From: Gilvimarinus polysaccharolyticus | Lineage (GTDB): Bacteria; Pseudomonadota; Gammaproteobacteria; Pseudomonadales; Cellvibrionaceae | Assembly (NCBI RefSeq): GCF_001187555.1 | Contig: NZ_LFIJ01000001.1 | Coordinates: 176,307-240,306, forward strand | DNA: 64,000 nt | Direction: 5' to 3' | Shown here: piece by piece, positions 21,866 through 49,984 of the stretch | Numbering within the stretch: the stretch's first letter is position 1 | Layout of the letters: each line of letters opens with the position of its first letter | Program-made: the position numbers and the translations under genes | The notes under the pieces: model-generated | What the model was told of the DNA's origin: nothing | What the model saw: the letters and a program-made list of their open reading frames with translations, nothing else | The model's database searches: none

Positions 21866-22588
21866 TTAATTTAGGTTGCTTAAACGCTTGATTGTAGGAG
21901 GTTGGGGGCTGCTGGTGGGGCAAGCAAACGCTAGGTGGCAACTAGAACCCAACTGGGGCGTGAGGTTCCAATAATGAAATTGCCACTGATCATCGGCAGT
22001 TAATAACTCCGGCTCAATAATGGCGGTGATGGGGTCTATGAGCTGATTAAAGCGCACTCGCGCTAAGCCTTCAGAAATTCCTGTTCCTCGGGCTTTAAAA
22101 AAAGCCTCTTTAAGGGTCCAGAGTTTATAAAATTGATCTTGCAGGGCCTGGCCTTGCAGGTTTTTTAAGTGATGATATTCGCTGCGGTGAAAGTAGTGAC
22201 GAGCGATGTTGATAGCGTCTCGCGGTTTGTGCGGCTGCTCTATATCAAGTCCCACAGGGGAGTGATCACTCACTGCAAGTGCAAGCCATTGGTTGCTGTG
22301 GGTTAGATTGAAGTGCAAGTTACAGTTGGTATCGTTCAGTTGGGGCTTACCGCCCGCGGCGATACTAAACTGTAATTGCTTAGGGGCTAGCTGACAGTGC
22401 TGGGAAAGCTGCCGGCGCATTAGTGCTCGACCGAGCAGGTAGTTGTGCTGGGCTTGCGGTGATTGAAAGCGTTGCAGGCGTTCGTGTTCGGCCGGGCTTA
22501 GCCAAGCTTTGGCTGTTTGTAGTACAGGGCTCAGGGGTGGAATGTCGACGCTATGCAGAAGGTAAATGGCCGCCGGTTGCTGGCTCAT
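21866..22588 (-). CDS. 4'-phosphopantetheinyl transferase, Sfp type
   Basis: Transfers the phosphopantetheine arm of CoA to carrier proteins. The 240 residues have the Sfp-type pseudodimer with signatures GRALMR, GGKPQL, NLTHS, the metal-binding VGLDIE and the C-terminal FYKLWTLKEAFFKARG. Its likely substrates are the three ACPs of the neighbouring pigment locus. It overlaps the upstream dehydratase gene by 4 nt (ATGA), so the two form an operon. Confidence 0.95.
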   Translation of the reverse strand: MSQQPAAIYLLHSVDIPPLSPVLQTAKAWLSPAEHERLQRFQSPQAQHNYLLGRALMRRQLSQHCQLAPKQLQFSIAAGGKPQLNDTNCNLHFNLTHSNQWLALAVSDHSPVGLDIEQPHKPRDAINIARHYFHRSEYHHLKNLQGQALQDQFYKLWTLKEAFFKARGTGISEGLARVRFNQLIDPITAIIEPELLTADDQWQFHYWNLTPQLGSSCHLAFACPTSSPQPPTIKRLSNLN

Positions 22589-23037
22589 AAGGCGGGCTCA
22601 TCGTGGTTGATAACGGCGGTGATTTGGCCGCTAAGAATGGTGCCTTGAGGGCCGCTAAGGCAAAACTCGTACAGCGAGCTATCGTTGTTCTGCACCAATT
22701 TACGCGCATTAATGTGCAACTCACCGGGGCTTTCATCAAGCTGTTGGGCCAAGGCTTTAAGTTTAGACGCTACGGCGATAAACCCTCGGGCTGGGGCGTT
22801 TTGTTGCGGCGCGCAAAGCCTAGCGTGGGCAGCCATCGCTTGCGCGGCATATTCGACGCCGGCAAACACCGATAATACCCCCTCAATGCGCAGCGGGTTG
22901 TCGCTTTGGGTGTGACGCGTAGCGGTACATTGAATATTATCGGCATCCCAGCCGGTGATACAATCGAGCAGTATCATTGGCTCGGCATGAGGCAGTAGTG
23001 CGGCAAGTTGCTGTTTGCTGATCGGTGTTGAAGTCAT
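22585..23037 (-). CDS. Hotdog-fold beta-hydroxyacyl-ACP dehydratase (ApeP-like)
   Basis: A 150-residue single-hotdog protein that starts with LAALLPHAEPMILLDCITGWD, the FabZ/ApeP-type opening, and has GVLSVFAGVEYAAQAMAAHARL where these proteins carry the long central helix; a Glu sits in the helix as in dehydratases. A second protein of this type is encoded at 46328-46810 in the aryl polyene operon. Together with the FabA-like partner at 23092 it may form a second heteromeric dehydratase for the resorcinol half. It lies 54 nt from that divergent gene. Confidence 0.8.
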   Translation of the reverse strand: MTSTPISKQQLAALLPHAEPMILLDCITGWDADNIQCTATRHTQSDNPLRIEGVLSVFAGVEYAAQAMAAHARLCAPQQNAPARGFIAVASKLKALAQQLDESPGELHINARKLVQNNDSSLYEFCLSGPQGTILSGQITAVINHDEPAL

Positions 23038-23091
23038 TTAAGGTCGTTAAACAAATGTTAATGGTGACTCTTTTACGGAGCGGTTAAGTAC

Positions 23092-23430
23092 ATGTTAACG
23101 CAATTTAGTGTGACCGACACAGCCCCCTGTGTACAGGGGCATTTCCCGGGGATGCCGGTAGTGCCGGGTGCTTTTTTACTGGCTAAGCTGCATGAATGTT
23201 TGCTGCAGCGCTATCCCGGCTGGGCTTTGATTGAGTTGAAAAAAGTAAAGTTCTTAATGCCGTTATTGCCGGGGGCAAACGCGCAGATAAGCGTAGATGA
23301 TAACGCTTGGCCTCGCGTCAAGTTGCGTATTAGTTGCGCCGATCAACGGCTGCTGGAGGCCTCGGGGACAATGTTTGCCTCCGGCTCCTCGGCGGCGGGA
23401 GCCTCGACTGAAGGCGAGCCCTTGGGGTAG
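23092..23430 (+). CDS. FabA/ApeI-like hotdog dehydratase
   Basis: A 112-residue hotdog protein. VQGHFPGMPVVPGAFLLAKLHECLL is the FabA/FabZ active-site pattern (His then Gly-Pro-Val-Pro-Gly turn). It resembles the ApeI-type protein encoded at 36312. ApeI works with ApeP as a heterodimer, and here a second ApeP-like gene is divergent at 22585-23037, so a second I:P-type pair is likely. Its last 88 nt overlap the convergent gene at 23343-23846, so the Ser/Gly-rich C-terminal tail may be unstructured. Confidence 0.75.
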   Translation: MLTQFSVTDTAPCVQGHFPGMPVVPGAFLLAKLHECLLQRYPGWALIELKKVKFLMPLLPGANAQISVDDNAWPRVKLRISCADQRLLEASGTMFASGSSAAGASTEGEPLG

Positions 23431-23846
23431 CGCAGGGTTAGCGTTGCCACGGGGTGAGCGGCGTCAAGCTTTAAAATCGAACGCTCAAAGTGGACCGACG
23501 GTTGCGATCGTCCCTGGCCAATAGTGCTGGCAAAGGGTTCGGTTGGTCGGTTTAGTGAGCGAGTGTTTAGCGTTTGATCGCCATTGATATCGATAAACGC
23601 GCGCATGGCGTATTGCCCGGCGGGGATCTCCAGTGGCAGCATCAAGTCTGAGGCCAGAGGTAAAAGGTGCTTGGATTGATGGGTGGCGGTTGTCTCCCAG
23701 CTGCCTTGGGCGGCGCGATAAACCGCTAAATATAGGGTTGCTCCCGGTGATAAGTTGTTCTCTAGTCGCACGCTAAACTCGTCCGCTAGGGCTGCACCGC
23801 AGCTTAGGCTAAGAGCGAGAAGTGTTAACTGTTGAATTTTACCCAT
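23343..23846 (-). CDS. DUF2141-like secreted protein
   Basis: A 167-residue protein with a clear Sec signal peptide (MGKIQQLTLLALSLSCGAALA, cleaved after about residue 21). The mature part follows the DUF2141 pattern: ENNLSPGATLYLAVYRA, LEIPAGQYAMRAFIDINGDQTLN and a final strand ATLTLRYPKG. Function is unknown. It overlaps the convergent dehydratase gene at its 3' end. It may be a periplasmic factor of the pigment locus or an unrelated passenger. Confidence 0.75.
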   Translation of the reverse strand: MGKIQQLTLLALSLSCGAALADEFSVRLENNLSPGATLYLAVYRAAQGSWETTATHQSKHLLPLASDLMLPLEIPAGQYAMRAFIDINGDQTLNTRSLNRPTEPFASTIGQGRSQPSVHFERSILKLDAAHPVATLTLRYPKGSPSVEAPAAEEPEANIVPEASSSR

Positions 23847-24009: not shown

Positions 24010-24957
24010 ATGGAGTGGGGCTTGGAAAACACCGATAATAAAAAGCGTGTTTTGGTGGTACATTACTCGCAAACTGGTCAGCTGGATCGAGTGGTTCAGT
24101 CTGTGGTCGGGCCATTGCAAAATGATGCCGCAATAACCGTAGATTACCTGACCATAAAACCGCAGGTGCCGTACCCGTTCCCGTGGCCTTTTATACAGTT
24201 TATTAATACTTTCCCTGAGGCTGCGCACCAAATAGATTGCCCGTTACAGCTGGACATCACGCAGTTGTACGAGCGTTACGACTTGGTTATTTTAGGGTAT
24301 CAGGTGTGGTTCTTGGCGCCTTCTATTCCGGTCTCATCTTTTTTAAATTCACCGGTTGCCCATAAGTTATTGGCCGATACTCCTGTAGTGACGGTGATTG
24401 CCTGTCGTAACATGTGGCTGCAAGCGCAAGAGAAAGTGAAAGCCCAGTTGGCCACTATCGGTGCAAAACTGGTGGGCAATATTGCCTTGGTGGATGAGGC
24501 CGGCAGTATCTTAAGTTTTTTTGCCACCCCGCTGTGGGTGCTAACTGGCCGGCGTGGACCATTTTGGTTTGGTATCCCTCGGGCTGGAGTTGCCGATGCG
24601 CAAATAACGGCTGCGGCGCGATTTGGTGAGGCCTTAGTCGCAAGGTTTAGTGCCAAGCAGCCAATGGATAGTACCGTTTTACAAGGGCTGGGTGCGGTAC
24701 GCATTAATGACAAACTTATTGCCAGTGAAAAAATAGGCACCCGCAGTTTTTATTTGTGGGGTAAATTGTTTTTAGCGTGTGGTAAGCCCAGCGCTTGGCT
24801 GCGTAAACCTTTGGCCTTGTTGTATGCGGTATTTTTGATCGCCATGATTGTAACGGTTGTGCCTATTACCGCGGTGTTAAAAAAACTGACAGCGCCGCTT
24901 ATGCGTGGTCGTATTACTAAACAAAAGCGCTACTACGCCGAACCATCTGGTGAGTAA
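24010..24957 (+). CDS. darA: Dialkylresorcinol-forming protein DarA (flavodoxin-like)
   Basis: A 315-residue protein with a flavodoxin-like N-terminus (VLVVHYSQTGQLDRVVQSV, phosphate-binding loop SQTGQ) and a hydrophobic C-terminal segment (about 265-295) suggesting membrane association. It corresponds to DarA of dialkylresorcinol clusters, which aromatises the cyclohexanedione made by DarB. darB follows 32 nt downstream. An internal TTG at 24022 has a better ribosome site (GGAGTGGGG) than the ATG at 24010, so the first four residues are uncertain. The assignment rests on recognising the family and the darB neighbour. Confidence 0.85.
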   Translation: MEWGLENTDNKKRVLVVHYSQTGQLDRVVQSVVGPLQNDAAITVDYLTIKPQVPYPFPWPFIQFINTFPEAAHQIDCPLQLDITQLYERYDLVILGYQVWFLAPSIPVSSFLNSPVAHKLLADTPVVTVIACRNMWLQAQEKVKAQLATIGAKLVGNIALVDEAGSILSFFATPLWVLTGRRGPFWFGIPRAGVADAQITAAARFGEALVARFSAKQPMDSTVLQGLGAVRINDKLIASEKIGTRSFYLWGKLFLACGKPSAWLRKPLALLYAVFLIAMIVTVVPITAVLKKLTAPLMRGRITKQKRYYAEPSGE

Positions 24958-24989: not shown

Positions 24990-26138
24990 ATGTCTGTGAA
25001 ACCTGTTTATATTACTCGTACCGCTAGTTTTTTACCCAACGCCCCAGTTGCCAATGAGCAAATGGAAGCTTTGTTGGGGCAAGTGGGAGAACGACCTTCA
25101 CGCTCGCGTAAAATGATCTTGCGCAGCAATAAAATACACACCCGCTACTACGCAATCGACCCTGCCACTGGATTGCATAATTACACTAATGCCCAGTTGT
25201 GTGCCGAGGCGGTGCGTCGCCTTGAAGGGGACAGTTTTAGTTTGTCTGAGTTAACTTGTCTTGCGGCAGCGACGAGCTTTCCCGATCAAATTATGCCGGG
25301 GCATGGATCGATGGTGCACGGCGAGTTGGATGCCCCAGCCTGTGAAGTTATTAGCACCTCAGGTGTGTGTGCCAGCGGTATGTCAGCGCTTAAGTACGCA
25401 TGGCTTAATGTCGCCGCAGGGCAGCATGATCGCGCCGTCGCGGCAGCCTCAGAGGCTCCGTCGTACGCCATGAAGGCCGAGAATTTTACTCCCGAGGTGG
25501 CTCATAAAGTTGCCGAGCTAGAGGCGCATCCAGAGATCGCCTTTGAGAAAGACTTTTTGCGTTGGATGTTATCCGATGGCGCCGGTGCCGTGTTGTTGGA
25601 TCAGCAAAAGCCAGAGGGCTTGGCGTTGCGCGTCGAGTGGCTAGAAATATTTTCGTACGCCAGTGAGATGAGCACTTGTATGTACGCTGGCGGCCGCAAA
25701 GAAGAGGATGGCTCGTTAACTGGTTGGCAAGCGGTTGATTGTACTACTCGCGGCGCTCAGAGCTTTATGGCTATTACGCAAGATGTGAAACAGCTTAATG
25801 CCAACATTACCGCCTACACCACAGAAAAACCGCTGCCCATAATCAAACAGAAATACGCTTTAAGTGCCGCTCAAGTCGACCACTTTTTACCGCACTACTC
25901 ATCGGGTTATTTTCGAGAGCGCTTGGCTGAAGGGTTGGAGCGTGCGGGTTTTGCCATAGACTTTTCGCGTTGGTTTACCAACTTGTCCAACAAGGGCAAC
26001 ACCGGTGCGGCCTCTATGTATATTATGCTCGATGAGTTGATGGCCTCGGGCAAACTTAAGCGCGGTGAAAAAATACTGTGTTATGTTCCCGAAAGCGGTC
26101 GGTTCTCTGTGGCTTATATGCTGCTTGAGGTTGTGTAA
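24990..26138 (+). CDS. darB: Dialkylresorcinol ketosynthase DarB
   Basis: A 382-residue KASIII-type thiolase-fold enzyme. In characterised clusters DarB joins a beta-ketoacyl and an alpha,beta-unsaturated acyl thioester to a cyclohexanedione, later aromatised to a 2,5-dialkylresorcinol. The typical opening is present (ITRTASFLPNAPVANEQME, then KMILRSNKIHTRYYAID). The catalytic triad is Cys127 (SGVCASGM), His in FLPHYSSGYF and Asn in LSNKGNTGAAS. It is part of darA-darB-26195-26599. Confidence 0.92.
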   Translation: MSVKPVYITRTASFLPNAPVANEQMEALLGQVGERPSRSRKMILRSNKIHTRYYAIDPATGLHNYTNAQLCAEAVRRLEGDSFSLSELTCLAAATSFPDQIMPGHGSMVHGELDAPACEVISTSGVCASGMSALKYAWLNVAAGQHDRAVAAASEAPSYAMKAENFTPEVAHKVAELEAHPEIAFEKDFLRWMLSDGAGAVLLDQQKPEGLALRVEWLEIFSYASEMSTCMYAGGRKEEDGSLTGWQAVDCTTRGAQSFMAITQDVKQLNANITAYTTEKPLPIIKQKYALSAAQVDHFLPHYSSGYFRERLAEGLERAGFAIDFSRWFTNLSNKGNTGAASMYIMLDELMASGKLKRGEKILCYVPESGRFSVAYMLLEVV

Positions 26139-26194: not shown

Positions 26195-26599
26195 GTGCGC
26201 GTAGACGAGGTGCCCCAAGATAACAGCAGTACTTATGCCGGCCATAAAAAGCTGCTGTACGCGCGCGATGTCGATGGCCATTATACGCCGATACAGTCTT
26301 CTGGCTGGGAGCCCGAGGCCTGCGCCACACAAGATGCTGTGGCCCTGTACGAGTCCCAGGCGCGCGAAGCGCGCTTAGCTGTGGAGCAGGGAGTGAAGTC
26401 GCCGCTTTATTTTCATATGTATAACTGCCGAATGGATCTGCTGCTGTTGTCGCAACTAACCGGTTTGTGGCGCTGGCGTATTCGGCGGCATTTTAAACCC
26501 CAAATCTTCGCATCACTTAATAACGGCGTGTTAATGCGCTATGCCGTGGCGATGGATAAAACTCCCATTGAGCTGCAAACTTTGCCGGATAACTCTTAA
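26195..26599 (+). CDS. Hypothetical protein of the dialkylresorcinol operon
   Basis: A 134-residue protein started from a GTG preceded by AAGGA. It contains a well-structured stretch SPLYFHMYNCRMDLLLLSQLTGLWRWRIRRHF... split here as helix-rich, and ends in PIELQTLPDNS. No named family was recognised. Its stop overlaps the next start by one base (TAATG), so it is coupled to the BtrH-like gene and follows darB. A role in chain transfer or as a partner of the BtrH-like protein is possible but unproven. Confidence 0.75.
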   Translation: MRVDEVPQDNSSTYAGHKKLLYARDVDGHYTPIQSSGWEPEACATQDAVALYESQAREARLAVEQGVKSPLYFHMYNCRMDLLLLSQLTGLWRWRIRRHFKPQIFASLNNGVLMRYAVAMDKTPIELQTLPDNS

Positions 26600-27588
26600 T
26601 GACTTTTACCCACCAACAAGCGGCCCACTGCGAAAGTGGCGTTATTTCGGCGCTGTTAAGCCAGCACGGTTTAGCGATTTCTGAACCAATGGCGTTTGGT
26701 TTGGCCAACGCTTTGGCGTTTGCTTACATTCCTATTATTAAAATCGGTGGGCAGCCGCTTATTGCTTACCGCTTGCCACCCAAAGCGATTATTAAAAATG
26801 TTTGTAAGCGTTTAGGGGTGACGGTTAAGTTTCAAAAATTTAACGACCCTATTCGCGGTGCTCAAGTGTTGGATGATTTGGTCGAGCGCGGCACTTTAGT
26901 CGGGCTGCAAACTTCAGTGTATTACTTGCCTTATTTTCCCGAGCAAATGCGCTTTCATTTTAATGCTCACAACTTATTGATTTACGGTAAAGGTGAGCGA
27001 GGCTATCAGGTCAGTGACCCGATTTTTGAGCAGCCGGTGGAGGTTGCCTCGCGGGATCTTAACAAAGCGCGCTTTGTTCGCGGCCCCTTAGCGCCCAAGG
27101 GATTGCTGTATCGTATTGAGTCGGTGCCAGAGACGATAGATTACCCCAAGGCAATTCGCGCCGCGATTAGCAAAAACGTTAAGGTGATGACCGGCGCACC
27201 GCTGCCGGTTATTGGTATAAAAGGGGTGCGTTATCTGGCCGGCAAGATCGATAAGCTGAGCGGTTCGGTAAAACAGCAGCGCTTGTACCTGGGGCACATT
27301 GTTCGTATGCAAGAAGAGATCGGCACCGGTGGTGCTGGCTTTCGGTTTATTTATGCGTCTTTTTTACAAGAGGCCGCTGAGCTGCTGCAGGACGACACGC
27401 TTGCCCAAGCATCTGCCGCTATGACCGATGCCGGCGATTACTGGCGAGAGTTTGCCTTGCTGGTTGCTCGCGAGTGTAAGCGCGGCGACAGTATTAACCG
27501 CGCGCTACTGGCCGATGCTTTGCGCGGCTGCGCCGATCGCGAAGCGGTTGTCTGGCAGAGCTTAAAGGCTTGGTGTAAGGCCGGTTAG
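26599..27588 (+). CDS. BtrH N-terminal domain protein, candidate ACP-dependent acyltransferase
   Basis: A 329-residue protein with the BtrH/DUF4872 domain. The signature HCESGVISALLSQHGLAISE with Cys11 and MAFGLANALAFAY is present, and a His in RFHFNAHNLLIYG fits the second catalytic residue of this papain-like fold. BtrH in butirosin synthesis moves an acyl chain from an ACP to the aminoglycoside. Here a comparable transfer from one of the ACPs onto a hydroxyl or amine acceptor, for example the resorcinol, is a reasonable inference. It converges with the CLF gene, overlapping it by 4 nt. Confidence 0.8.
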   Translation: MTFTHQQAAHCESGVISALLSQHGLAISEPMAFGLANALAFAYIPIIKIGGQPLIAYRLPPKAIIKNVCKRLGVTVKFQKFNDPIRGAQVLDDLVERGTLVGLQTSVYYLPYFPEQMRFHFNAHNLLIYGKGERGYQVSDPIFEQPVEVASRDLNKARFVRGPLAPKGLLYRIESVPETIDYPKAIRAAISKNVKVMTGAPLPVIGIKGVRYLAGKIDKLSGSVKQQRLYLGHIVRMQEEIGTGGAGFRFIYASFLQEAAELLQDDTLAQASAAMTDAGDYWREFALLVARECKRGDSINRALLADALRGCADREAVVWQSLKAWCKAG

Positions 27589-28436
27589 CCCTCGATTATT
27601 ACCGCGCAGTATTCACCAAGGCTATTGCGATTAAGGTGGATCGCGCGTCCGGCTTGTGCCGCTAGCGCGGTTAGGGCTGCGCCAGAGTAAACCCCTTGAA
27701 TCACGGCAGCGCGAGAAAACTCTTGCCACGGGTAAGGCGCTAAGAGCGTTTGCTCGTCTGCGTTAGGGGCAAAGCTTAATTGAATGGCGGCGGCCGACTG
27801 TTGTTGCAACCAATCGCTAAGGGCCGCTAGGTTGTTAAAGTATACCGGCGTCTGCAATACGCTAGAGGCATCGTTAGATTGTTCGAGGAGCAACCAGTGG
27901 CTGCCCTCATGAAGTACTGCCGTGTTAGCGGCTAGCCCTAATCGCTCTAGCTGCTGAGCAAAAGGCAGCGTCACCTCGTCAAATCCACCTATCAAAGCTG
28001 TGCTTATTCGGCCACTATTAAGATCGAGACATGCGTGTAATAACGCCGCTTCAAAAGAAAACTCCTCTTGCGATACCACCAAAGTATTACCCGTAATTTG
28101 TAAGAGTTGGGTGAGGTAAAACCCAGCGGAATTTCCTAAGGAGTTAACAAAGTGCACCGGTTTAGGTAGCTGTCCCTCTTGCTCGATGGTACTAATAACT
28201 TGGGCCGAGGTGGCAACTGCGCCGTAGCGGGTTGCGAGATACAGGCCGGTCTCTGTTGGCAGTTCGCGCCCAGCTACGCAGCTTAGGCCGCCGGCTAAAC
28301 ACAATTGAATGTAACGATCGATGCGGCGAATACGCTGCGGTGTCCAGCGCGAGATAATGGCTTGCAAGTCGGGTCGCGGACCTTGCTCTGCGGTAAGAGC
28401 ATTAAAAATTGAGTAGCTGCTGGCGATACGAATCAT
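27585..28436 (-). CDS. Chain-length-factor-like truncated ketosynthase
   Basis: A 283-residue thiolase-fold protein lacking the catalytic Cys: the nucleophile position reads VSQEEFSFEA with Gln123, as in polyketide chain length factors. It also lacks the HGT and GHTLGA histidine motifs. It is coupled (ATGA) to the intact ketosynthase gene upstream at 28433-29593, so the two probably form a KS:CLF heterodimer. A second, separate CLF-like gene is at 32339. It would set the chain length for the resorcinol or acyl part. Confidence 0.8.
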   Translation of the reverse strand: MIRIASSYSIFNALTAEQGPRPDLQAIISRWTPQRIRRIDRYIQLCLAGGLSCVAGRELPTETGLYLATRYGAVATSAQVISTIEQEGQLPKPVHFVNSLGNSAGFYLTQLLQITGNTLVVSQEEFSFEAALLHACLDLNSGRISTALIGGFDEVTLPFAQQLERLGLAANTAVLHEGSHWLLLEQSNDASSVLQTPVYFNNLAALSDWLQQQSAAAIQLSFAPNADEQTLLAPYPWQEFSRAAVIQGVYSGAALTALAAQAGRAIHLNRNSLGEYCAVIIEG

Positions 28437-29593
28437 GCATTAGCTCCGCAGTCGCGAATAATCAGCGCATTGTTGTTGCCGCCAAAAGCAAAGCAGTTAA
28501 ATAAATAATTGCCGCTGGGGGCAGTTTGCGTTTGACGAATCAACGCAACCCCTAAGTGGCCGTCATTTATGGCGTGAGTGTTAGCGGGTAAGCGACCTTG
28601 TTGTAGCGCGCCTAGGCTGAGAGCGACTTCGAGTGCACCCGAGGCGCCTAAGGTGTGACCACAGAAAGGCTTTAGGGCAAATGCCGGGGGCATCTGGTGC
28701 GCAAACACATCGAGTAACGCGGCGGCTTCGGCCTCGTCGTTTTTCAGTGAGGCGGTGCCGTGGACTTTAATTGCGCAGATGTCGCGGGCTTCTATATTGC
28801 TATCGCTCAGTGCTTGGCGAATGGTTTTACTGAGTTCTTGACCATCGACATGGGCGGCGGTCAGGCTGTGATTATCAGTACCAATGGCGCCCCCCAGTAA
28901 TTGCCAGCGCTGCTCGTGTGGCGGTGTGTTAGAGCCACGACTTAAAAGTAAAGCGGCTAAGCTATCGCCCAATATTAAGCCGTCACGTTCGGCGCCAAAC
29001 GGTTGCATGCTCTGCCCCGGCGAGATCAGCCCTAAGCCGTAAAACCCTAACTGACTGGTGTGATTGGCTTGCTCGCTGCCCAATACTAAAGCGTGATCCA
29101 CTAAGCCTGCCTGCAACAGGCGGTGACCGTACAGCAGGGCATTGGAGCTTGAGGTGCAGGCTGTGGAGTAGGTGTGGTGGTGAGCCGACAACCCCAGCTC
29201 GCTGGCGAGTCGGGCAGCTAATTTGCCGTAACCAACAATGGGCATAGGCATTGCGGCGGCTCCGCGTTGTTGTAAATCCTCGCGGTAGCGCTGCTCAGAG
29301 ATGTGCACATCAAACGACGATGAGCCTATTAGCAATGCCGTGCGTTGACGTGCGGTGCCATCGAGGCCACACGCTAACAATAAGTTTTCTAAAAAAACAT
29401 TGAGGCGTTGATAAAAATCTTGCGCCGCAGGATCTTGCTTGCTGGAAAAATAGGGCAGCTGCAGAGGATCGTGCAGTTGCTCGAACGCTTGCGGCGACAG
29501 AGACTTTTGCTCGGCCAGTAGCGCTGTAACGCAACTGGCAAGATTTTCCCCAAGGCTACACTGAGCGTCTAGTTGACGAATATATGTAGGCAT
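28433..29593 (-). CDS. Beta-ketoacyl synthase (type II PKS-like)
   Basis: A 386-residue condensing enzyme with an intact triad: Cys146 in STACTSSSN, His in VHGTASLKND and His in CGHTLGASG. The C-terminal GGNNNALI loop is typical of the ApeO-like class. It sits directly between its ACP (29594-29863) and its CLF partner (27585-28436), all on the minus strand with 0-4 nt spacing. It represents a second elongating KS besides those in the aryl polyene operon. Confidence 0.93.
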   Translation of the reverse strand: MPTYIRQLDAQCSLGENLASCVTALLAEQKSLSPQAFEQLHDPLQLPYFSSKQDPAAQDFYQRLNVFLENLLLACGLDGTARQRTALLIGSSSFDVHISEQRYREDLQQRGAAAMPMPIVGYGKLAARLASELGLSAHHHTYSTACTSSSNALLYGHRLLQAGLVDHALVLGSEQANHTSQLGFYGLGLISPGQSMQPFGAERDGLILGDSLAALLLSRGSNTPPHEQRWQLLGGAIGTDNHSLTAAHVDGQELSKTIRQALSDSNIEARDICAIKVHGTASLKNDEAEAAALLDVFAHQMPPAFALKPFCGHTLGASGALEVALSLGALQQGRLPANTHAINDGHLGVALIRQTQTAPSGNYLFNCFAFGGNNNALIIRDCGANA

Positions 29594-29863
29594 CTACGGC
29601 GCGTTATCAACAATGGTTTGGGCTAGCGTATTAATATTTTTAAGGGCTCGGTGAGCGGCGGTGTTGCCCTCGATACGCACGCCGTATTGTTTTTTTATCG
29701 CCATACAAATTTGTAAAACATCCAGTGAGTCTAGGTCGAGTTGCTCGCCTAGCAAGGGCTGCTCGTCGTCGATATCTGCCGGGGTTAAATCTTCTTTGTC
29801 GCACTCTTCAATAATAAGCTCTTTAAGAGTCAGCTTGAGAGTGTCGGTGGCCGTGTCAAACAT
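29594..29863 (-). CDS. Acyl carrier protein
   Basis: An 89-residue ACP. The phosphopantetheine site is Ser46 in QLDLDSLDVLQICMAI. It abuts the ketosynthase gene and overlaps the end of the ABC permease gene by 8 nt. It would carry the chain built by the adjacent KS/CLF. Its N-terminus (about 20 residues) and acidic helix 1 are as in ordinary ACPs. Confidence 0.93.
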   Translation of the reverse strand: MFDTATDTLKLTLKELIIEECDKEDLTPADIDDEQPLLGEQLDLDSLDVLQICMAIKKQYGVRIEGNTAAHRALKNINTLAQTIVDNAP

Positions 29864-34121: not shown

Positions 34122-34370
34122 ATGACTAAAGACGAAATATATTCAGAACTAAAAAATGTTTTAGTCAAATCTTTTATGGTCGACGAAAGCGCTATTTCGC
34201 TGGACGCCGGTCTGTATACCGATTTGGACTTTGACAGTATTGATGCCATCGACTTGGCGGCCAAAATTCACAGCGTAACCGGTAAGCAGCTAAAGCCCGA
34301 GCAGTTTAAAGAAGTTCGTACCATTGGCGATGCTGTTAATGTTGTCGATGAGCTTATGAGAAACGGTTGA
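34122..34370 (+). CDS. apeF: Acyl carrier protein (second of two)
   Basis: An 82-residue ACP with phosphopantetheine site Ser39 (DLDFDSIDAIDLAAKI). Its surface differs clearly from the preceding ACP, suggesting a division of labour, for example priming versus elongation. The stop overlaps the next start by 4 nt (ATGA). Confidence 0.92.
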   Translation: MTKDEIYSELKNVLVKSFMVDESAISLDAGLYTDLDFDSIDAIDLAAKIHSVTGKQLKPEQFKEVRTIGDAVNVVDELMRNG

Positions 34371-40354: not shown

Positions 40355-41043
40355 CCATTAGAACTTTAGCTGGCGGTAACGCCGGTATGTCAACTTGTCT
40401 GAAAGCGAATGCCAAGCAGGCGTTAAAAGTTTTGGGTTTATGGCTGTGTGTTTGTTCGAGCATAAGTGTTGCGCAAGGTGTATTTGATTATCCGATTAAG
40501 ACGGGCAGCGCCGAAGCGCAAACGCTAGAGTCTATTGCTGCTGAGCTGCGCCAAAACTTACCGCTCAATGCTGCCGTCGAACAACAAAAGTATTTGGCTG
40601 TTTTACGCGAGCCGATGATCTCTACTGGCGCGCTTAATTTAACCGCTGATGGCGATTTGCATTGGCGTATTGCCGAGCCTTTTGCCGTAAGTTATTCAAT
40701 GACCGCTGGCGAGCTAACGCGAACCATGGATGGGGCTGTCGAGATCATCAGTGCCTCGGCCGAGCCTGCGCTGTATGGTTTTTTTCAGTTGTTTAGCCGT
40801 TTGTTTGAGTTGAGTTTGCAAGAGTTAAACAATTACTTTGCCGTGTATTTGTTGCCGCAAGCCGATACTGATGAGCGCTGGGTGATTGGTCTCACGCCTG
40901 AGGATACCCGGTTAAAAAAAGTTTTAGCGCACATTATTGTACAGGGTAAAGATGGCGCGATTGAGCAAGTCACGCTCACCGAACCCGGCGATGATTACAC
41001 TCTATTGAAGTTTTCCAACATCCCAGCTGACAAGGTTAAATAA
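40351..41043 (+). CDS. LolA-like outer-membrane lipoprotein carrier
   Basis: A 230-residue protein from a GTG at 40351 that overlaps the previous stop (GTGA). A Met at 40387 would also give a signal peptide (KVLGLWLCVCSSISVAQG, cleavage near AQG). The mature part resembles LolA-type half-barrels (LREPMISTGALNLTADGDLHWRIAEP, LKKVLAHIIVQGKDGAIEQVTLTE). In aryl polyene loci such proteins are presumed to ferry the pigment through the periplasm to the outer membrane, upstream of the MMPL exporter gene. Confidence 0.88.
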   Translation: MTIRTLAGGNAGMSTCLKANAKQALKVLGLWLCVCSSISVAQGVFDYPIKTGSAEAQTLESIAAELRQNLPLNAAVEQQKYLAVLREPMISTGALNLTADGDLHWRIAEPFAVSYSMTAGELTRTMDGAVEIISASAEPALYGFFQLFSRLFELSLQELNNYFAVYLLPQADTDERWVIGLTPEDTRLKKVLAHIIVQGKDGAIEQVTLTEPGDDYTLLKFSNIPADKVK

Positions 41044-43389: not shown

Positions 43390-44637
43390 ATGGCAGAGCC
43401 AATAGAAAATCTAGATGTCGTTATTATTGGTGCGGGTCCGTCAGGAGTCGTCGCGGCGATGTTGTTGTGGCAAAAAGGGTATCGTATCCGAGTGCTCGAG
43501 CGGCAACACTTTCCGCGTTTTTCGATCGGCGAAAGCTTGTTGCCGCAATGTATGGTTTATCTGGAGGAGGCGGGCCTGGCCGATGTTGTCAATAACGCTG
43601 GGTTTCGTTTAAAAAATGGTGCGGCATTTGGTTGGGGCGAGCGCTATACCTGGTTTAATTTTGAAGAAAAGTTCACTCAGGGGCCAGGCACCACGTTTCA
43701 GGTCGAGCGTGCAACGTTTGATAAATTGCTGGCCGATGAAGCGATCCGCAACGGCGTTGATATTCGCTTTGGTCAAACCATTACCGCTTACGAACAAACC
43801 GAGACTGGCTCACGTGTGACCGCGCGAGCTGATGATGGCAGCGTGACACAACTGGATTGCCGTTTTGTACTAGATGCCAGTGGTTTTGGGCGAGTGTTGC
43901 CCAGTTTGCTGGATTTAGAAACACCGTCAAATTTCCCAGTGCGACAAGCGTTGTTTACTCACGTGTTAGATGGCATTGATGGTGAAGCGTTAGATCGCGA
44001 TAAAATCTTAATTACTGTCCACCCTAAAGAGCGAGATATTTGGTACTGGCTGATTCCGCTTACGGACAAGAAATGTTCTACCGGTGTCATTATTAGCCAA
44101 GAAAAACTCGACTTACGTAAAGGTGAAAATCCAAAAGAGCTGCTGCTAGAGCTTATTGCTGAGGCACCCGAGTACCAAAAATTATTTGCCAATGCTGAGT
44201 GGCCCATGGAGGTTAAACAATACGGTGGAAGCTCGCGTAATGTAAAGCAGCTGGCCACTGACCGTTACGCATTGTTGGGTAATGCGGGTGAATTTCTCGA
44301 TCCAATATTTTCCTCTGGCATCACCATAGCTATGCGCTCGGCCAGTACTGCGGTGGCAACTTTAACACGTCAGCTAGAGGGCGAAACAGTAGATTGGCAC
44401 AAGGATTATGATCTGCCGCTGCGTCAAGGGGTCGATACTTTTAGGGTGTTTGTTGAGGCATGGTACGAGGGTTTGTTTCAAGACATTATCTTTTTTGATC
44501 AGCGTGGCTCCAGTGTGCGGGATATGATCTCGTCAATTTTGGCCGGTTATGCTTGGGATATGGAGAATCCATTTGTGGCCGATCCGGTTCGCCGTATGAA
44601 CACCTTGGCTAAATTTTGCCGAGCGGAGGGCGTATAA
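43390..44637 (+). CDS. FAD-dependent halogenase-like oxidoreductase
   Basis: A 415-residue flavoprotein of the tryptophan/phenol halogenase family. The Rossmann motif is GAGPSG (14-19). The halogenase motif WxWxIP is present as WYWLIP (218-223), and Lys75 in FRLKNGAAFGWG sits where the family's catalytic Lys is expected. Xanthomonadins of Xanthomonas are brominated aryl polyenes and their loci encode a halogenase, so ring halogenation is a real possibility. Related proteins without halogenase activity also occur in aryl polyene loci. The gene starts 10 nt after the exporter. Confidence 0.9.
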   Translation: MAEPIENLDVVIIGAGPSGVVAAMLLWQKGYRIRVLERQHFPRFSIGESLLPQCMVYLEEAGLADVVNNAGFRLKNGAAFGWGERYTWFNFEEKFTQGPGTTFQVERATFDKLLADEAIRNGVDIRFGQTITAYEQTETGSRVTARADDGSVTQLDCRFVLDASGFGRVLPSLLDLETPSNFPVRQALFTHVLDGIDGEALDRDKILITVHPKERDIWYWLIPLTDKKCSTGVIISQEKLDLRKGENPKELLLELIAEAPEYQKLFANAEWPMEVKQYGGSSRNVKQLATDRYALLGNAGEFLDPIFSSGITIAMRSASTAVATLTRQLEGETVDWHKDYDLPLRQGVDTFRVFVEAWYEGLFQDIIFFDQRGSSVRDMISSILAGYAWDMENPFVADPVRRMNTLAKFCRAEGV

Positions 44638-44640: not shown

Positions 44641-45150
44641 ATGCGCCTGATGGCACGGAGTGTAGTGTTGTTAATGAGCTTGTGGGCGACTGCGTGTTCG
44701 ACAGTGCTGCCATTTAGCGCTGGCAAGGCTTGTCTGCCGCTGCTAGATAGCACTGCTCGCTTAAAAGTGCAGTATGACGGGCACACCGAGTACCTATTGC
44801 TACGCACCGAGCAGAATGCGGGAGGCGTTGTTTTTGTCGCGCTGGATACTATTGGCTCGCCGCAATTTAGCGCTAACCTCAATAATGGCCAATTGGCGCT
44901 TGAGCGCTCGCCGCTATACCGTGGTCTCGAGCCTGCGGTATTGTTATGGGGGTATAATTGGTGGCAGTTGCGCACAGAGCCACGTGCTATTTGTGCCGAG
45001 AGTGTCGGTTTACAGTTGCATCAAACAACAAGCACGTTAAGCTTGACGCAAAATGGGCAGCCGAGCTGGCATTGGAGTTCGGCGCAGCCTATGCAATTTG
45101 ATTTGCCACAGCTGGGGGCTCGCGTCAGTGTGATCCCCCTTGAGAAATAA
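44641..45150 (+). CDS. DUF3261-family lipoprotein
   Basis: A 169-residue lipoprotein (signal MRLMARSVVLLMSLWATAC, lipidated Cys19). DUF3261 proteins are a constant part of aryl polyene loci with no known activity. The body is beta-rich (LDSTARLKVQYDGHTEYLLLR). It may cooperate with the LolA-like carrier at the outer membrane. It lies 3 nt after the halogenase-like gene and 2 nt before the ketosynthase. Confidence 0.88.
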   Translation: MRLMARSVVLLMSLWATACSTVLPFSAGKACLPLLDSTARLKVQYDGHTEYLLLRTEQNAGGVVFVALDTIGSPQFSANLNNGQLALERSPLYRGLEPAVLLWGYNWWQLRTEPRAICAESVGLQLHQTTSTLSLTQNGQPSWHWSSAQPMQFDLPQLGARVSVIPLEK

Positions 45151-45152: not shown

Positions 45153-46331
45153 ATGGCGACATATCTAACAGATTTAGGGCTAGTGAATGCATTGGGGGCT
45201 GGGCAACAAGCCGTAAGCCAAGCATTGTTTTCTGGAGAGCAGGCGCTATCGGTTTGCGACTGGGTGCCGGGCCGGACAACATATACGGCTGCGGTCAGCG
45301 CAAACTTGGCCCCCGTGCCTGACTCTTTAGGGCTGTTTGCTAGTCGTAATGCCCAATTGGCAATCACCGCACTCCATCAGATCAATACCACGGTTAAGCA
45401 GGCCTTGGAGCGTTACGGTAGCCAGCGTGTTGCCGTGATCGCAGGTACCAGTACGTCAGGTATTGCCGAGGGCGAAACGGCCATTAAAGCGCAACTGCAG
45501 ACCGGCCAGATTCCCTCTCACTACCATTATCGTCAGCAAGAGATTGGCAATTTGTCGGAGCTGGTGGCACGGTTTACTGGGGCTACTGGGCCGGCTTACA
45601 CGCTGTCTACCGCGTGTTCCTCCAGTGCCCATGCGCTGGGTTCAGCGAAACGACTGCTGGACGTCGGCTTGGCGGATGCTGTGATTGTGGGCGGTGCCGA
45701 TTGTCTGAGCCGATTAACCGTCAATGGTTTTGCCGCACTCGATTCGGTGAGCTCTGAGCCGTGCGTGCCTTTTAGTGTTAATCGCGCGGGCATTAATATT
45801 GGCGAGGCCGCGGCCTTTTTTTTGGTCACCCGTGAACCGCTGCTTTACGATATAGAGTTGCTAGGGGTGGGGGCTTCATCCGATGCGCATCATATATCGG
45901 CACCGGATCCATCTGGTGCCGGCGCTGAATTAGCCATTAGAGCCGCGTTAACATCGGCGCGCTGCGAGTTGCGCGAGGTAAATTATATCAACTTGCACGG
46001 TACTGGTACTCCGCTAAACGATGCAATGGAGTCTGAGGTGGTAGCCCGTTTATTTGGCCACCAACCACTGTGCAGTAGCAGTAAAAGCCAGTTGGGGCAT
46101 ACGCTGGGTGCGGCAGGTGCAACCGAGGTGGCGCTTTGTTGGCTTGGCTTACAGGCAAACCGCGTACCGCCCCATATGTGGGATAACAACCCAGACCCGG
46201 CGCTGCCTGAGCTGCAATTTGCGCCGTTAAATAGCACTCTCTTTCCTACTGCGCCACGGGTCTTACTCAGCAATTCGTTTGCCTTTGGTGGCAATAATGC
46301 GGCCGTTATATTGGGGGATTCGCGCGCGTGA
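45153..46331 (+). CDS. apeO: Aryl polyene ketosynthase (ApeO-like)
   Basis: A 392-residue elongating ketosynthase. Triad: Cys155 in STACSSSAH, His in LHGTGTPLND, His in LGHTLGAAG. It should pair with the chain length factor at 32339 to build the polyene, as ApeO:ApeC does. The stop overlaps the dehydratase gene by 4 nt (GTGA, start GTG at 46328). Confidence 0.92.
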   Translation: MATYLTDLGLVNALGAGQQAVSQALFSGEQALSVCDWVPGRTTYTAAVSANLAPVPDSLGLFASRNAQLAITALHQINTTVKQALERYGSQRVAVIAGTSTSGIAEGETAIKAQLQTGQIPSHYHYRQQEIGNLSELVARFTGATGPAYTLSTACSSSAHALGSAKRLLDVGLADAVIVGGADCLSRLTVNGFAALDSVSSEPCVPFSVNRAGINIGEAAAFFLVTREPLLYDIELLGVGASSDAHHISAPDPSGAGAELAIRAALTSARCELREVNYINLHGTGTPLNDAMESEVVARLFGHQPLCSSSKSQLGHTLGAAGATEVALCWLGLQANRVPPHMWDNNPDPALPELQFAPLNSTLFPTAPRVLLSNSFAFGGNNAAVILGDSRA

Positions 46332-46810
46332 ACTTGGCTGATTTAATTCCACATCAAGCGCCCATGCGCCTGATTGATAAACTGCTGAGCAGTTCGCAAC
46401 TCGATGTCGAAGTCGCGGCTGAGGTGCGCGCAGACAACGTTTTTTACGATGCCGCGAAAGGTGGTGTACCCGCTTGGACGGGCATTGAGTATATGGCACA
46501 AACTGCTGCCGTGTGGGTGGGGTTAGAGGATTCGCGCGCGGGTAAAAAAATTGAACCGGCTTTTCTAATCAGTACTCGCCAGTATACGGCTCATTGTCCG
46601 CAGTTTGAGTTGGGTGAATCGCTGCGAGTTTGTGTCCATGTGAATTTGATCGATGGCTCTTTGGTCGCTTTTAACGGAGCCATTTACAGCGCTCACAACG
46701 CTGACAATAGATTACTGGCCGAGGCGGTTTTTACCGCGTATCGGCCCGATGACGTAGCCGCTTATTTAGCGGCAGCAGAACCTGAACTTACGCAAGGAGT
46801 AATACCATGA
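46328..46810 (+). CDS. apeP: Dehydratase subunit of aryl polyene synthesis (ApeP-like)
   Basis: A 160-residue hotdog protein from a GTG at 46328 overlapping the KS stop. The typical opening is IPHQAPMRLIDKLLSSS, and the central helix with the conserved Glu is in WTGIEYMAQTAAVWVGL. It pairs with the ApeI-like protein at 36312 to dehydrate the beta-hydroxyacyl-ACP. It overlaps the ketoreductase gene by 4 nt. Confidence 0.9.
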   Translation: MNLADLIPHQAPMRLIDKLLSSSQLDVEVAAEVRADNVFYDAAKGGVPAWTGIEYMAQTAAVWVGLEDSRAGKKIEPAFLISTRQYTAHCPQFELGESLRVCVHVNLIDGSLVAFNGAIYSAHNADNRLLAEAVFTAYRPDDVAAYLAAAEPELTQGVIP

Positions 46811-47532
46811 GTCGCCGGGTATTGGTTACCGGATCGAGCCGTGGCATCGGTCGCGAGATTGCTTTAGAGCTAGCCCGCCAAGGGTTTGCTATTACCGTTC
46901 ATTGTCGCACCAACCGTGCGCAAGGTGAGGCGGTGGTAGAGGATATCCGTGCACTTGGCGGCACTGCCGAGCTGGTGTGTTTTGATGTGGCTAATCGCTC
47001 CGAGGTACGCGCTGTACTCGAGACTGTAATCGCCGAGCACGGGGCTTTTTACGGTATTGTTTGCAACGCGGGTATTACTCGTGACAATGCGTTTCCGGCA
47101 ATGTCCGAAGACGATTGGGATAGCGTAATTCACACAAATTTAGATGGTTTTTACAATGTTGTGCAGCCATTAGTGATGCCTATGGTGCAGGCGCGCGCAG
47201 GCGGCCGGATTGTGACCTTGTCGTCAATTGCGGGACTTGCTGGCAACCGGGGTCAGGTAAATTATAGCGCCACCAAAGCCGGTTTGATTGGCGCCACCAA
47301 AGCCTTGGCGTTAGAGTTGGGCAAACGCAAAATTACGGTTAATTGTGTCGCGCCAGGTATTATCGAAACCGATATGACCGATGCCGTATTTGCCGAGGAA
47401 GCGAAAAAAATGATTCCGCTTAAACGCTTTGGTACCGCTTGCGAGGTGGCAAGTTTAGTGGGCTACCTAATGAGTGATTCGGCCAGTTACATTACCCGCC
47501 AAGTTATTTCTGTAAACGGCGGGATGCTCTAA
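46807..47532 (+). CDS. apeQ: 3-oxoacyl-ACP reductase of aryl polyene synthesis (ApeQ-like)
   Basis: A 241-residue short-chain dehydrogenase. The NADPH loop is TGSSRGIGRE, NAG is in IVCNAGITRD, and the catalytic Ser-Tyr-Lys is in TLSSIAGLAG then YSATKAG. It follows the dehydratase with ATGA overlap and ends one base into the next ketosynthase. Confidence 0.95.
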   Translation: MSRRVLVTGSSRGIGREIALELARQGFAITVHCRTNRAQGEAVVEDIRALGGTAELVCFDVANRSEVRAVLETVIAEHGAFYGIVCNAGITRDNAFPAMSEDDWDSVIHTNLDGFYNVVQPLVMPMVQARAGGRIVTLSSIAGLAGNRGQVNYSATKAGLIGATKALALELGKRKITVNCVAPGIIETDMTDAVFAEEAKKMIPLKRFGTACEVASLVGYLMSDSASYITRQVISVNGGML

Positions 47533-48758
47533 TGCGCAGGGTGGTGATAACCGGTGTGGGTGCCGTAAGTGCGCTGGGCAATAACTGGCATGAGGTGCAA
47601 GCGGCGCTGGCGGCTGGGCATAATAAAATTCAGCGCATTGATGACTGGGATGATATAGCCGGGTTAAATACTCGCTTGGGTGCGCCAGTCGACTTTACAA
47701 CGCCGGCGCATTATCCGCGTAAAAAGCTGCGCAGTATGGGACGGGTGTCGGTAATGGCGGTTAGCGCCACCGAGCAAGCCTTGGCTCAGGCCGGCTTAGT
47801 GGGTGATCCGTGTTTAACCAATGGCAGTACCGGTGTTTCTTACGGCTCGTGTATTGGGACCCCAAGTGATGTCCCCGCGTTGACTCGCGTCGTCACCGAT
47901 CGCACCACCATTGATTTAACGGCCTCCACTTATTTACGCACGATGACTCATACGGCTACGGTTAATATTGGTTTGTTTTTCAATATGACCGGACGCATTA
48001 TTCCAACCGCATCGGCTTGCACCTCGGGTAGCCAAGGCATTGGTTACGCTTACGAGGCTATTAAATATGGCATGCAAGATCTTATGGTGGCGGGCGGCGC
48101 CGAAGAGTTCCATGTAACGCCGGTGGCAGTGTTTGATACCTTGTTTGCCACCAGCACTCGCAATAATGAGCCGACCTTAACGCCGCGCCCGTTTGATACC
48201 GGCCGCGATGGCTTGGTGATTGGTGAGGGCGCCTGCTCGTTAATTTTAGAAGAATATGAACACGCTCGTGCTCGTGGCGCCAATATTTTAGGTGAGATAG
48301 TCGGTTACGGCACCAACTCTGATGGCGCTCATGTGACTGAGCCTAGCGCCGCAACTATGAGCCGAGCTATGCAGTTGGCGTTAGCCGATGCCAAGCTTAG
48401 CCCGGAGCAAATTGGTTATGTAAATGCCCACGGTACAGCCACCGCTAAAGGCGATATTGCCGAGAGCCACGCAACTGTGGCGGCATTGGGTGCCGGTAAA
48501 CCTATTAGCTCGCTTAAAAGTTATATCGGCCATACGTTAGGTGCTTGTGGTGCGTTAGAGGCGTGGATGAGTCTCGAGATGATGAACAGTGGCTGGTTTG
48601 CCCCGACCATTAATCTTGAACAGGTCGATCCTGCATGTGCTGAATTAGATTATATTCAACACACTGGGCGTGCTATCGAGTGCGACTATGTGATGAGCAA
48701 CAATTTTGCCTTTGGTGGTGTTAATACGTCTTTAATTATTAAGCGTGGTCCATCATGA
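47532..48758 (+). CDS. apeR: FabF-like ketosynthase (ApeR-like, copy 1)
   Basis: A 408-residue ketosynthase. Triad: Cys163 in SACTSGSQG, His in AHGTATAKGD, His in IGHTLGACG. It is probably the priming ketosynthase for the aryl starter. It is followed, with a 4-nt overlap, by a second homologue at 48755 that shares its layout and motif spacing. Confidence 0.92.
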   Translation: MRRVVITGVGAVSALGNNWHEVQAALAAGHNKIQRIDDWDDIAGLNTRLGAPVDFTTPAHYPRKKLRSMGRVSVMAVSATEQALAQAGLVGDPCLTNGSTGVSYGSCIGTPSDVPALTRVVTDRTTIDLTASTYLRTMTHTATVNIGLFFNMTGRIIPTASACTSGSQGIGYAYEAIKYGMQDLMVAGGAEEFHVTPVAVFDTLFATSTRNNEPTLTPRPFDTGRDGLVIGEGACSLILEEYEHARARGANILGEIVGYGTNSDGAHVTEPSAATMSRAMQLALADAKLSPEQIGYVNAHGTATAKGDIAESHATVAALGAGKPISSLKSYIGHTLGACGALEAWMSLEMMNSGWFAPTINLEQVDPACAELDYIQHTGRAIECDYVMSNNFAFGGVNTSLIIKRGPS

Positions 48759-49984
48759 ATCGTGTTGTGGTTACCGGTATGGCCGGTATCACCTCGCTGG
48801 GAAGTGATTGGGCGAGCCTTTCTAGCGCCTTAAAAAATGGTCGCAGCGGTATTCGCGCGATGCCTGAGTGGGGCGTGTTTAAAGGTTTGGATACCCAAGT
48901 GGCCGGTCCAGTGGACGATTTTGTCAAACCTAGCAGTTACCCGCGTAAAAAAGTTCGCAGCATGGGGCGGGTGGCACAAATGGCAACCCGCGCGACCGAG
49001 CTGGCGCTTATTGAGGCGGGTTTGGAGAACGACCCAGTACTGGTTAGTGGTCAGTGCGGAATTTCCTATGGCTCATCAACCGGCAGTACCCCAGCCACGC
49101 AACAGTTTGCGAAATTACTTAGCAGCCAAGATTTAACGCGGGTAACGGCCACCAATTATGTACAAATGATGAGCCACACCACGGCGGTTAATTTAAGTAT
49201 ATTTTTTGGCGTAAAAGGGCGGGTTTACACCACCTCATCGGCCTGTACCTCGGGCAGTCAAGGCATTGGTTACGCTTACGAGGCGATTAAAAACGGTTAC
49301 CAATCGGTAATGATTGCCGGCGGTGCGGAAGAGCTTTGCCCCTCTGAGGCGGCCGTGTTTGATACTTTTGGTGCGGCCAGTACTAAAAATAACGCGCCGA
49401 ATACGACCCCCAGCCCATTTGATATTAATCGTGATGGTTTAGTGATTGGCGAGGGTGCCGGTACCTTAATACTCGAGTCGCTCGAGCATGCTCGCGCCCG
49501 TGGCGCTACTATTTATGCCGAGGTGATTGGTTTTGGCACCAACGCCGACGGCGCCCATATTACCCAGCCTGATGCCGACAGCATGCAAGCTGCAATGCAG
49601 TTGGCATTAAAAGACGCCGGTTGCACGCCTCAAGCGATCGACTATATCAATGTGCACGGTACCGCTACGCCCTGGGGCGATGTTGCCGAGAGTGTAGCGA
49701 CGGCGGAAATTTTTGGCGATACTGTCCCGGTAAGCAGTATCAAAGGGCATATTGGCCACACATTAGGTGCAAGTGGCGCGATTGAGGCATGGGCAAGTAT
49801 TGCCATGATGCGTGAGCATTGGCTAATGCCCACCTTAAATTTATCGCAGTTAGACCCAGAGTGCGCCAAGCTTGATTATATTACCCAGTCACCTCGCGCC
49901 ACCAATGGCGACACGCTTATGAGCAATAGCTTTGCTTTTGGCGGCATTAACACTTCGCTAATTTTTCGAGTGAATACTCTTTGA
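48755..49984 (+). CDS. FabF-like ketosynthase (ApeR-like, copy 2)
   Basis: A 409-residue ketosynthase with Cys164 in SACTSGSQG, His in VHGTATPWGD and His in IGHTLGASG. The whole sequence aligns with copy 1 without large gaps, for example YPRKK(L/V)RSMGRV near residue 63 in both, so the pair arose by tandem duplication. Both triads are intact, so both are probably active. It is the last gene of the aryl polyene operon. Confidence 0.92.
   Translation: MNRVVVTGMAGITSLGSDWASLSSALKNGRSGIRAMPEWGVFKGLDTQVAGPVDDFVKPSSYPRKKVRSMGRVAQMATRATELALIEAGLENDPVLVSGQCGISYGSSTGSTPATQQFAKLLSSQDLTRVTATNYVQMMSHTTAVNLSIFFGVKGRVYTTSSACTSGSQGIGYAYEAIKNGYQSVMIAGGAEELCPSEAAVFDTFGAASTKNNAPNTTPSPFDINRDGLVIGEGAGTLILESLEHARARGATIYAEVIGFGTNADGAHITQPDADSMQAAMQLALKDAGCTPQAIDYINVHGTATPWGDVAESVATAEIFGDTVPVSSIKGHIGHTLGASGAIEAWASIAMMREHWLMPTLNLSQLDPECAKLDYITQSPRATNGDTLMSNSFAFGGINTSLIFRVNTL

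Follow-up and report, generated by a model that had tools for sequence, protein, structure and literature searches.

The stretch described here is a 64,000-nucleotide piece of Gilvimarinus polysaccharolyticus DNA (contig NZ_LFIJ01000001.1; hereafter the window), and our subject is a locus at positions 21866-49984 in which a dialkylresorcinol (DAR; dar) gene cluster adjoins a divergent aryl polyene (APE; ape) operon. We consider it very probable that this locus produces a flexirubin/arcuflavin-type ester between an aryl polyene and a dialkylresorcinol. The genes make up a complete-looking set for a yellow-orange pigment that probably consists of a polyene acid linked to a resorcinol lipid. The support for this reading comes from gene content, motifs, conservation and co-occurrence. 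A first-pass annotation had placed a dar cluster and a divergent aryl polyene operon here, with which family matches, layout and relatives agree, and had called the locus an APE-DAR hybrid of the flexirubin/arcuflavin kind, which is upheld by the presence of DarB/DarA together with a type II polyene synthase set.

Gene content of the two halves

According to the open reading frame list of the window, frames fill the locus with few gaps and fall into two divergent blocks (the host genome has 3.74 Mb in 7 contigs). The left block carries, on one side, genes for a 4'-phosphopantetheinyl transferase, two small hotdog-like proteins and a DUF2141 protein followed by darA, darB, darD and darE, and on the other side darK, darJ, darC, darI and darF. 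The right block begins at 32339 with an ApeC-type chain length factor and closes at 49984 with two FabF-type ketosynthases. The dar letters follow Table 1 of PMC3949708 and were matched by annotation and order, without sequence comparison; the NCBIfam letters differ, the DarG family being DarD here and DarH being DarE. The first pass had also proposed a divergent promoter gap between the blocks. The gap is real; the region 31800-32500 holds a single weak promoter-like match, near the 0.6 expected there by chance.

The DAR half was recognised from DarB, which scored 581 bits to the StlD/DarB subfamily NF005293 (cut-off 450) and 478.3 bits to the NCBIfam resorcinol_DarB family, the latter below its cut-off of 550. 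We therefore have a DarB-type cyclising ketosynthase with a DarA partner, darA being named by place. DarA has no Pfam or NCBIfam match, and a profile search gave only a weak flavoprotein match (E 0.029); the name was assigned because the gene adjoins darB, as darA does in 78 of 80 related loci, and because of this weak match. The first-pass claim that the left half encodes a ketosynthase, an acyl carrier protein (ACP), a BtrH-like protein and an ABC exporter is confirmed by Pfam or NCBIfam matches for each. Its view that a second dedicated ketosynthase/chain length factor line is unusual had to be dropped, because darJ, darK and darC are a usual part of dar clusters and because the extra ketosynthase, ACP, BtrH-like protein and ABC exporter all occur in the Azoarcus dar cluster. 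The best solved structure for DarJ was 6qsp (112 bits), which we take to be the ApeO-ApeC pair.

The label of chain length factor that had been given to the frame at 27585-28436 (DarK) is likely to be right. DarK matches no Pfam or NCBIfam family, but a profile of 25 sequences (the window with 24 of 58 DarK frames, those omitted being mostly short) matched the N-terminal half of FabF among solved structures (1j3n, E 5.8e-6), the cysteine is absent from the active-site position, and the gene adjoins darJ. DarK probably pairs with DarJ. Conservation was judged for DarK from rows of at least 200 amino acids (33 including the window, from 70 matches plus the window) and for DarJ from rows of at least 300 amino acids (66 including the window, from 73 matches plus the window). 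DarK frames have about 285 amino acids in Gilvimarinus, Marinimicrobium and several other loci, and about 185 in many Pseudomonas loci (for example L027, L029 and L030), with starts chosen by script.

The right half holds a type II polyene synthase set of ketosynthase, chain length factor, ACP, ketoreductase, dehydratase and ligase. The Cys-His-His residues are intact in DarJ, ApeO and both ApeR-type ketosynthases, as are the serine sites of all three ACPs, the lyase's Ala-Ser-Gly triad and the signatures of the flavin halogenase-like enzyme. The locus looks intact and conserved and is probably functional.

Assigning every step from gene families, we propose a pathway in which the ammonia-lyase would convert an aromatic amino acid into a cinnamic-type acid, the ApeH-type ligase would load this acid onto an ACP, and the ApeO/ApeC-type ketosynthase-chain length factor pair with the ketoreductase and dehydratases would extend it to a polyenoyl-ACP, the ring perhaps being halogenated by a flavin enzyme. 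A medium-chain acyl or beta-ketoacyl chain may come from DarJ, DarK and DarC; DarB would condense and cyclise two chains and DarA would aromatise the DarB product to a dialkylresorcinol. DarE would then transfer the polyenoyl group to a resorcinol hydroxyl, and DarF/DarI with the LolA/RND/DUF3261-type set would place the pigment in the envelope.

Conservation and co-occurrence

A scan of genome contigs with DarE gave 285 confirmed places, of which 80 were kept as loci; these span gamma-, alpha-, beta-, delta- and epsilon-type proteobacteria. Counting up to 10 kb on either side, we found among the 80 loci darA in 78, darB in 79, darD in 79, darF in 72, darI in 71, darC in 71, darJ in 65 and darK in 61, and all nine dar genes in 57, many loci being cut by contig ends. 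At least three ape-type genes were present in 31 of the 80, a count from which the flanks and contig ends hide more distant genes.

The window's DarE is 67-76% identical to its closest relatives, from Gilvimarinus and Marinimicrobium. From the first hotdog-type gene (dh1) to the last ketosynthase, the same order and orientation are kept in all five relatives compared (four Gilvimarinus, one Marinimicrobium), and because of this conservation a chance origin of the locus is ruled out. The phosphopantetheinyl transferase gene is syntenic in all four Gilvimarinus and was not found in the Marinimicrobium stretch. In three of the five relatives (G392, G394 and G395) the darE-darK interval holds one extra gene, by appearance a long frame with a GGDEF-like motif in G392 and G394 and a glycosidase-like frame in G395 (at about 8140-9810 in locus L123, 7270-8920 in L128 and 6070-7790 in L132), while the window, G390 and G393 have no space for a gene there. 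The first pass had placed the locus in a cellulolytic-type gammaproteobacterium; the kinship of DarE agrees with such a host, a GH10 gene lies at 54539, and Gilvimarinus and Marinimicrobium are degraders of plant or algal polysaccharides.

Among 390 genomes of the order, 14 had DarE over the cut-off, 15 had DarB and 73 had ApeI. All 14 DarE genomes also had DarB and ApeI over the cut-off, and ApeI occurred in 59 of the 376 DarE-less genomes (Fisher p 2e-11, uncorrected for relatedness). We also examined the genomes behind 40 of the 80 loci, some of them shared with the order sample: an ApeC-type chain length factor (PF13723) was found in 40/40, sharing a contig with DarE in 26, 25 of which have the two within 40 kb, and in one of 14 genomes of a control set.

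Ester formation, polyene start and alternative readings

DarE scored 470.5 bits to DarH_acyl (NF053550, 'BtrH-related acyltransferase'; cut-off 300) and 154 bits to BtrH_N. Its residues C11, H120, H124 and D140 are invariant in 91 of 91 aligned rows, some genomes being counted twice (for example L017/L096 and L068/L089); in a second alignment (29 of 80 frames plus the window) C11 is nearly invariant, probably from script-chosen starts that lie past it. The invariant cysteine, histidines and aspartate fit a thiol acyltransferase. We regard DarE as the most likely enzyme for moving the polyenoyl group to the resorcinol hydroxyl, a proposal whose chances we judge to be about even. Against solved structures DarE gave four designed-protein look-alikes only, at the C-terminal end and with E 0.013 at best, and no homologue. 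No published test of DarE as an ester enzyme was found in the open-licence literature, outside which most subscription journals lie. Among the genes of the locus, darE is the one whose loss would bear on how pigments of this class acquire their ester bond.

A more detailed version, which we advance tentatively and consider rather doubtful as a whole, is that DarE forms the polyene-resorcinol ester through a Cys-bound acyl intermediate, that the product of the locus is a halogenated, lyase-started hybrid, and that the linked ebo cluster (see below) helps its envelope traffic.

Several observations weigh against the ester reading or its parts. In Chitinophaga, the ligase-like FlxW has been proposed for the ester (PMC3992019, in the part dealing with that cluster). 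G328 has DarB (455 bits) and ApeI over the cut-off with a BtrH match of just 72 bits, and five further genomes (G034, G069, G100, G128 and G305) have DarB-like scores of 347-444 bits, under 450, with ApeI over the cut-off and no DarE over its own. Altogether 15 genomes have a DarB-like score of 319-449 bits without DarE over the cut-off, and ApeI occurs in five of these 15. The other sampled genome of the window's genus (G057) has ApeI and no DarE, and only two of 18 genomes of the window's family have DarE, so the dar part is patchy. Because darE and darB share a locus in 79 of 80 cases, co-occurrence cannot separate an ester role of darE from a resorcinol role. No methyltransferase was seen among the family matches of the locus. 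The halogenase-like enzyme has its nearest solved relative in 3nix (322 bits), which is named flavoprotein/dehydrogenase only, solved chains named halogenase scoring 139 bits and below; Lys75 and the WxWxIP motif are present in 8/8 rows. Finally, the selectivity pair of the ammonia-lyase is Phe106-His107 by alignment, versus His89-Leu90 in RsTAL, and use of tyrosine is not assured.

A possible alternative, and the one that we take most seriously, is that DarE takes part in building the resorcinol or in loading DarC, and that ester formation falls to the LpxL-type or the phospholipid-type acyltransferase. The ape operon does hold both of these enzymes, the near-constant pairing of darE with darB would suit a resorcinol role, and any ester in the six DarE-less genomes with DarB-type and ApeI genes would need another enzyme. 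However, BtrH itself transfers an ACP-bound acyl group, and the family of DarE bears the name of acyltransferase in NCBIfam. Moreover, the E. coli ape operon, for which the relevant excerpt of PMC8253772 mentions no dar partner, also lists a glycosyltransferase/acyltransferase, which argues that the ape acyltransferases have another role.

It is unlikely, in our estimation, that the lyase makes no polyene starter and that the head group is 4-hydroxybenzoate as in E. coli. This possibility gains from the E. coli-type ApeH, which in the section of PMC8253772 concerned is predicted or shown to use 4-hydroxybenzoate, and from the lyase selectivity pair, which is neither that of RsTAL nor that of its H89F mutant. 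Set against it, the lyase gene lies inside the operon, is 76-81% identical in 5/5 relatives and is the single match in the whole genome, which speaks against its being a spare gene of histidine utilisation. The Phe-His pair is conserved in 6/6 rows and in five of five further relatives. To judge from these genes, the polyene start looks closer to that of flexirubin, with an amino acid lyase, than to that of arcuflavin, with a XanB2-type 3-hydroxybenzoate start; no XanB2-type chorismatase is among the Pfam matches in a search confined to the locus, where several proteins are matchless.

We consider it very improbable that the two halves act independently and give, with no ester between them, free dialkylresorcinol and, in the manner of E. 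coli, an aryl polyene that is free or bound to lipid. In favour of this reading, an E. coli-type ape set functions without dar (PMC8253772), ApeI is present in those 59 DarE-less genomes of the order, and the locus's own acyltransferases could anchor the polyene alone. Against it, dar and ape adjoin in all five relatives, DarE and the chain length factor share a contig at a distance of up to 40 kb in those 25 genomes, and all 14 DarE genomes of the order have ApeI.

Known systems, feature positions and neighbouring genes

The locus was compared with four kinds of known system. From Azoarcus sp. BH72, whose arcuflavin is a xanthomonadin-DAR hybrid, the excerpted Table 1 of PMC3949708 lists DarA, DarB, DarD (conserved hypothetical), DarE (BtrH-like peptidase), DarF and DarI (ABC exporter), DarC (ACP), DarJ (ketosynthase) and DarK (hypothetical), all nine of which are shared by annotation and relative order, sequences not being compared. 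The Azoarcus row reads K-J-C-I-(H-G)-F-E-D-B-A, whereas here the K-J-C-I-F block is inverted relative to A-B-D-E, and neither the PilT-domain nor the prevent-host-death genes found in that row were seen in our locus. Unlike the present arrangement, the two arc polyene loci of Azoarcus are unlinked to each other and start from 3-hydroxybenzoate of the XanB2 type. According to the same source, 16/39 genomes have both, and in nine of them dar lies inside or next to the polyene genes.

The flexirubin clusters of Chitinophaga pinensis and Flavobacterium johnsoniae, as far as described in the portion of PMC3992019 that covers them, have in common with our locus a lyase and ligase start, a ketosynthase/reductase/dehydratase set, and acyltransferase, LolA, glycosyltransferase, exporter and DAR genes. 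They differ in phylum (sequences were not compared), the present ape part has E. coli-type ApeI and ApeP, and our locus has no methyltransferase family match.

Marine Pseudomonas hybrids of types APE-DAR V1-V3 (PMC10165715, in excerpt) join an E. coli/Vibrio fischeri-type ape set to dar as here, gene order not being compared; the Pseudomonas loci that we found mostly have the shorter DarK frame. APE-DAR hybrids are thus already in print for marine Pseudomonas, and the present locus is a further example.

With E. coli ApeA-R, as listed in the excerpted table of PMC8253772, the locus shares the ApeC-type chain length factor, ACPs, ApeH, dehydratases, thioesterase, LolA-like protein, RND transporter, DUF3261 protein, ketosynthase and ketoreductase. 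In that excerpt a single gene covers glycosyltransferase and acyltransferase, and neither dar genes nor a lyase or halogenase-like gene are mentioned. A tandem pair of FabF-type ketosynthases closes our ape operon, both being found in 5/5 relatives, versus a single ApeR in the same table.

It has already been pointed out that pigments of the flexirubin kind do not mark out Bacteroidetes (PMC3949708), and the compact divergent dar-ape locus of Gilvimarinus and Marinimicrobium provides extra evidence for this; among the literature matches listed, neither genus is named in connection with these pigments.

Table 1. Features of the dar-ape locus, with positions in the window and the basis of each name
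Feature	Position	Strand	Basis
Sfp-type 4'-phosphopantetheinyl transferase, probably primes carrier proteins	21866..22588	-	PF01648 70 bits
dh1, hotdog-type dehydratase-like by appearance	22585..23037	-	no Pfam/NCBIfam match; same place 5/5 relatives
dh2, short FabA/FabZ-like	23092..23430	+	PF07977 19.3 bits, under cut-off 23; same place 5/5 relatives
DUF2141 protein	23343..23846	-	PF09912 32 bits; same place 5/5 relatives
darA, dialkylresorcinol aromatase-type	24010..24957	+	place and conservation; weak flavoprotein match
darB, KAS III-type cyclising ketosynthase	24990..26138	+	NF005293 581 bits
darD (NCBIfam DarG family)	26195..26599	+	NF053536 (DarG_fam) 165 bits, cut-off 70 passed; flexirubin_DarG 120.8 bits, below cut-off 170
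darE, BtrH-type acyltransferase (NCBIfam DarH), candidate ester-forming enzyme	26599..27588	+	NF053550 470 bits
darK, chain-length-factor-like ketosynthase N-half without active-site Cys	27585..28436	-	profile match to FabF N-half
darJ, ketosynthase with Cys-His-His	28433..29593	-	PF00109/PF02801, motifs
darC, ACP	29594..29863	-	PF00550, DLDSL motif
darI, ABC-2 exporter permease	29856..31028	-	PF12698 98 bits
darF, ABC exporter ATPase	31025..31942	-	PF00005 120 bits
Divergent gap between dar and ape	31943..32338	.	gene layout
ApeC-type chain length factor	32339..33088	+	PF13723 210 bits
Phospholipid-type acyltransferase	33051..33860	+	PF01553 67 bits
Two ACPs	33853..34110 and 34122..34370	+	PF00550
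ApeG-type membrane protein, named by place	34367..34927	+	no Pfam match; same place 5/5 relatives
ApeH-type AMP-forming ligase	34822..36312	+	PF00501 75 bits; TSGSTG motif; true start probably ~34924
ApeI dehydratase	36312..36659	+	PF22818 43 bits
Glycosyltransferase family 2	36620..37429	+	PF00535
LpxL-type acyltransferase	37416..38384	+	PF03279
Aromatic amino acid ammonia-lyase, FlxA-like role	38317..39921	+	PF00221 566 bits; ASG at 166; true start probably ~38374
4HBT-type thioesterase	39914..40354	+	PF13279 47 bits
LolA-like carrier, named by place	40333..41043	+	no Pfam match; same place 5/5 relatives
RND/MMPL-type exporter, named by place	41049..43379	+	PF02460 19.4 bits, under cut-off 23; same place 5/5 relatives
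Flavin-dependent halogenase-like enzyme	43390..44637	+	PF04820 88 bits; GAGPSG, GESLLP, WYWLIP
DUF3261/LolB-like protein, named by place	44641..45150	+	no Pfam match; same place 5/5 relatives
ApeO-type ketosynthase	45153..46331	+	PF02801 101 bits
ApeP dehydratase	46328..46810	+	PF22817 36 bits
ApeQ ketoreductase	46807..47532	+	PF13561 192 bits
Two tandem FabF-type ketosynthases (ApeR and relative)	47532..49984	+	PF00109/PF02801; Cys-His-His motifs

To the left of the locus, genes for a phage-type integrase (12914-14179) and for a DUF927 protein (16355-19270) come after tRNA-Leu(gag) (12684-12768). The region 12684-19270 is probably an integrated element that neighbours the pigment locus; the right end of the element was not found. 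We considered a mobile-element origin of the pigment locus itself and rejected it: there is no second copy of the tRNA end in the window, either as exact words of at least 14 or with up to three mismatches, the integrase and DUF927 proteins had no match in 13 stretches of the five relatives, and a triosephosphate isomerase match lies about 2.3 kb from the phosphopantetheinyl transferase gene in both relative stretches that reach it (G390 and G393), so the element looks like a separate neighbour.

To the right, a pair of genes of DUF1501/DUF1800 type by appearance (50860-54132; the pair is also in G392) lies between the pigment locus and the GH10 glycosidase gene at 54539-56524. An ebo metabolite-traffic cluster, a type of cluster linked in the relevant part of PMC6282210 to movement of the scytonemin precursor to the periplasm, occupies 57414-63696 on the minus strand and begins about 7.4 kb past the last ape gene. 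It encodes EboE (415 bits, cut-off 250), an EboA domain (147 bits, cut-off 50), a UbiA-like protein with 77.5 bits to EboC (cut-off 250 not reached), and phosphodiesterase, DHQ synthase-like and TatD-like proteins. EboE was present in eight of the 40 DarE genomes. Three of these, all Gilvimarinus (G392, G393 and G394), have it on the darE contig at a distance of about 35-43 kb, whereas in the other five it is on a different contig from darE.

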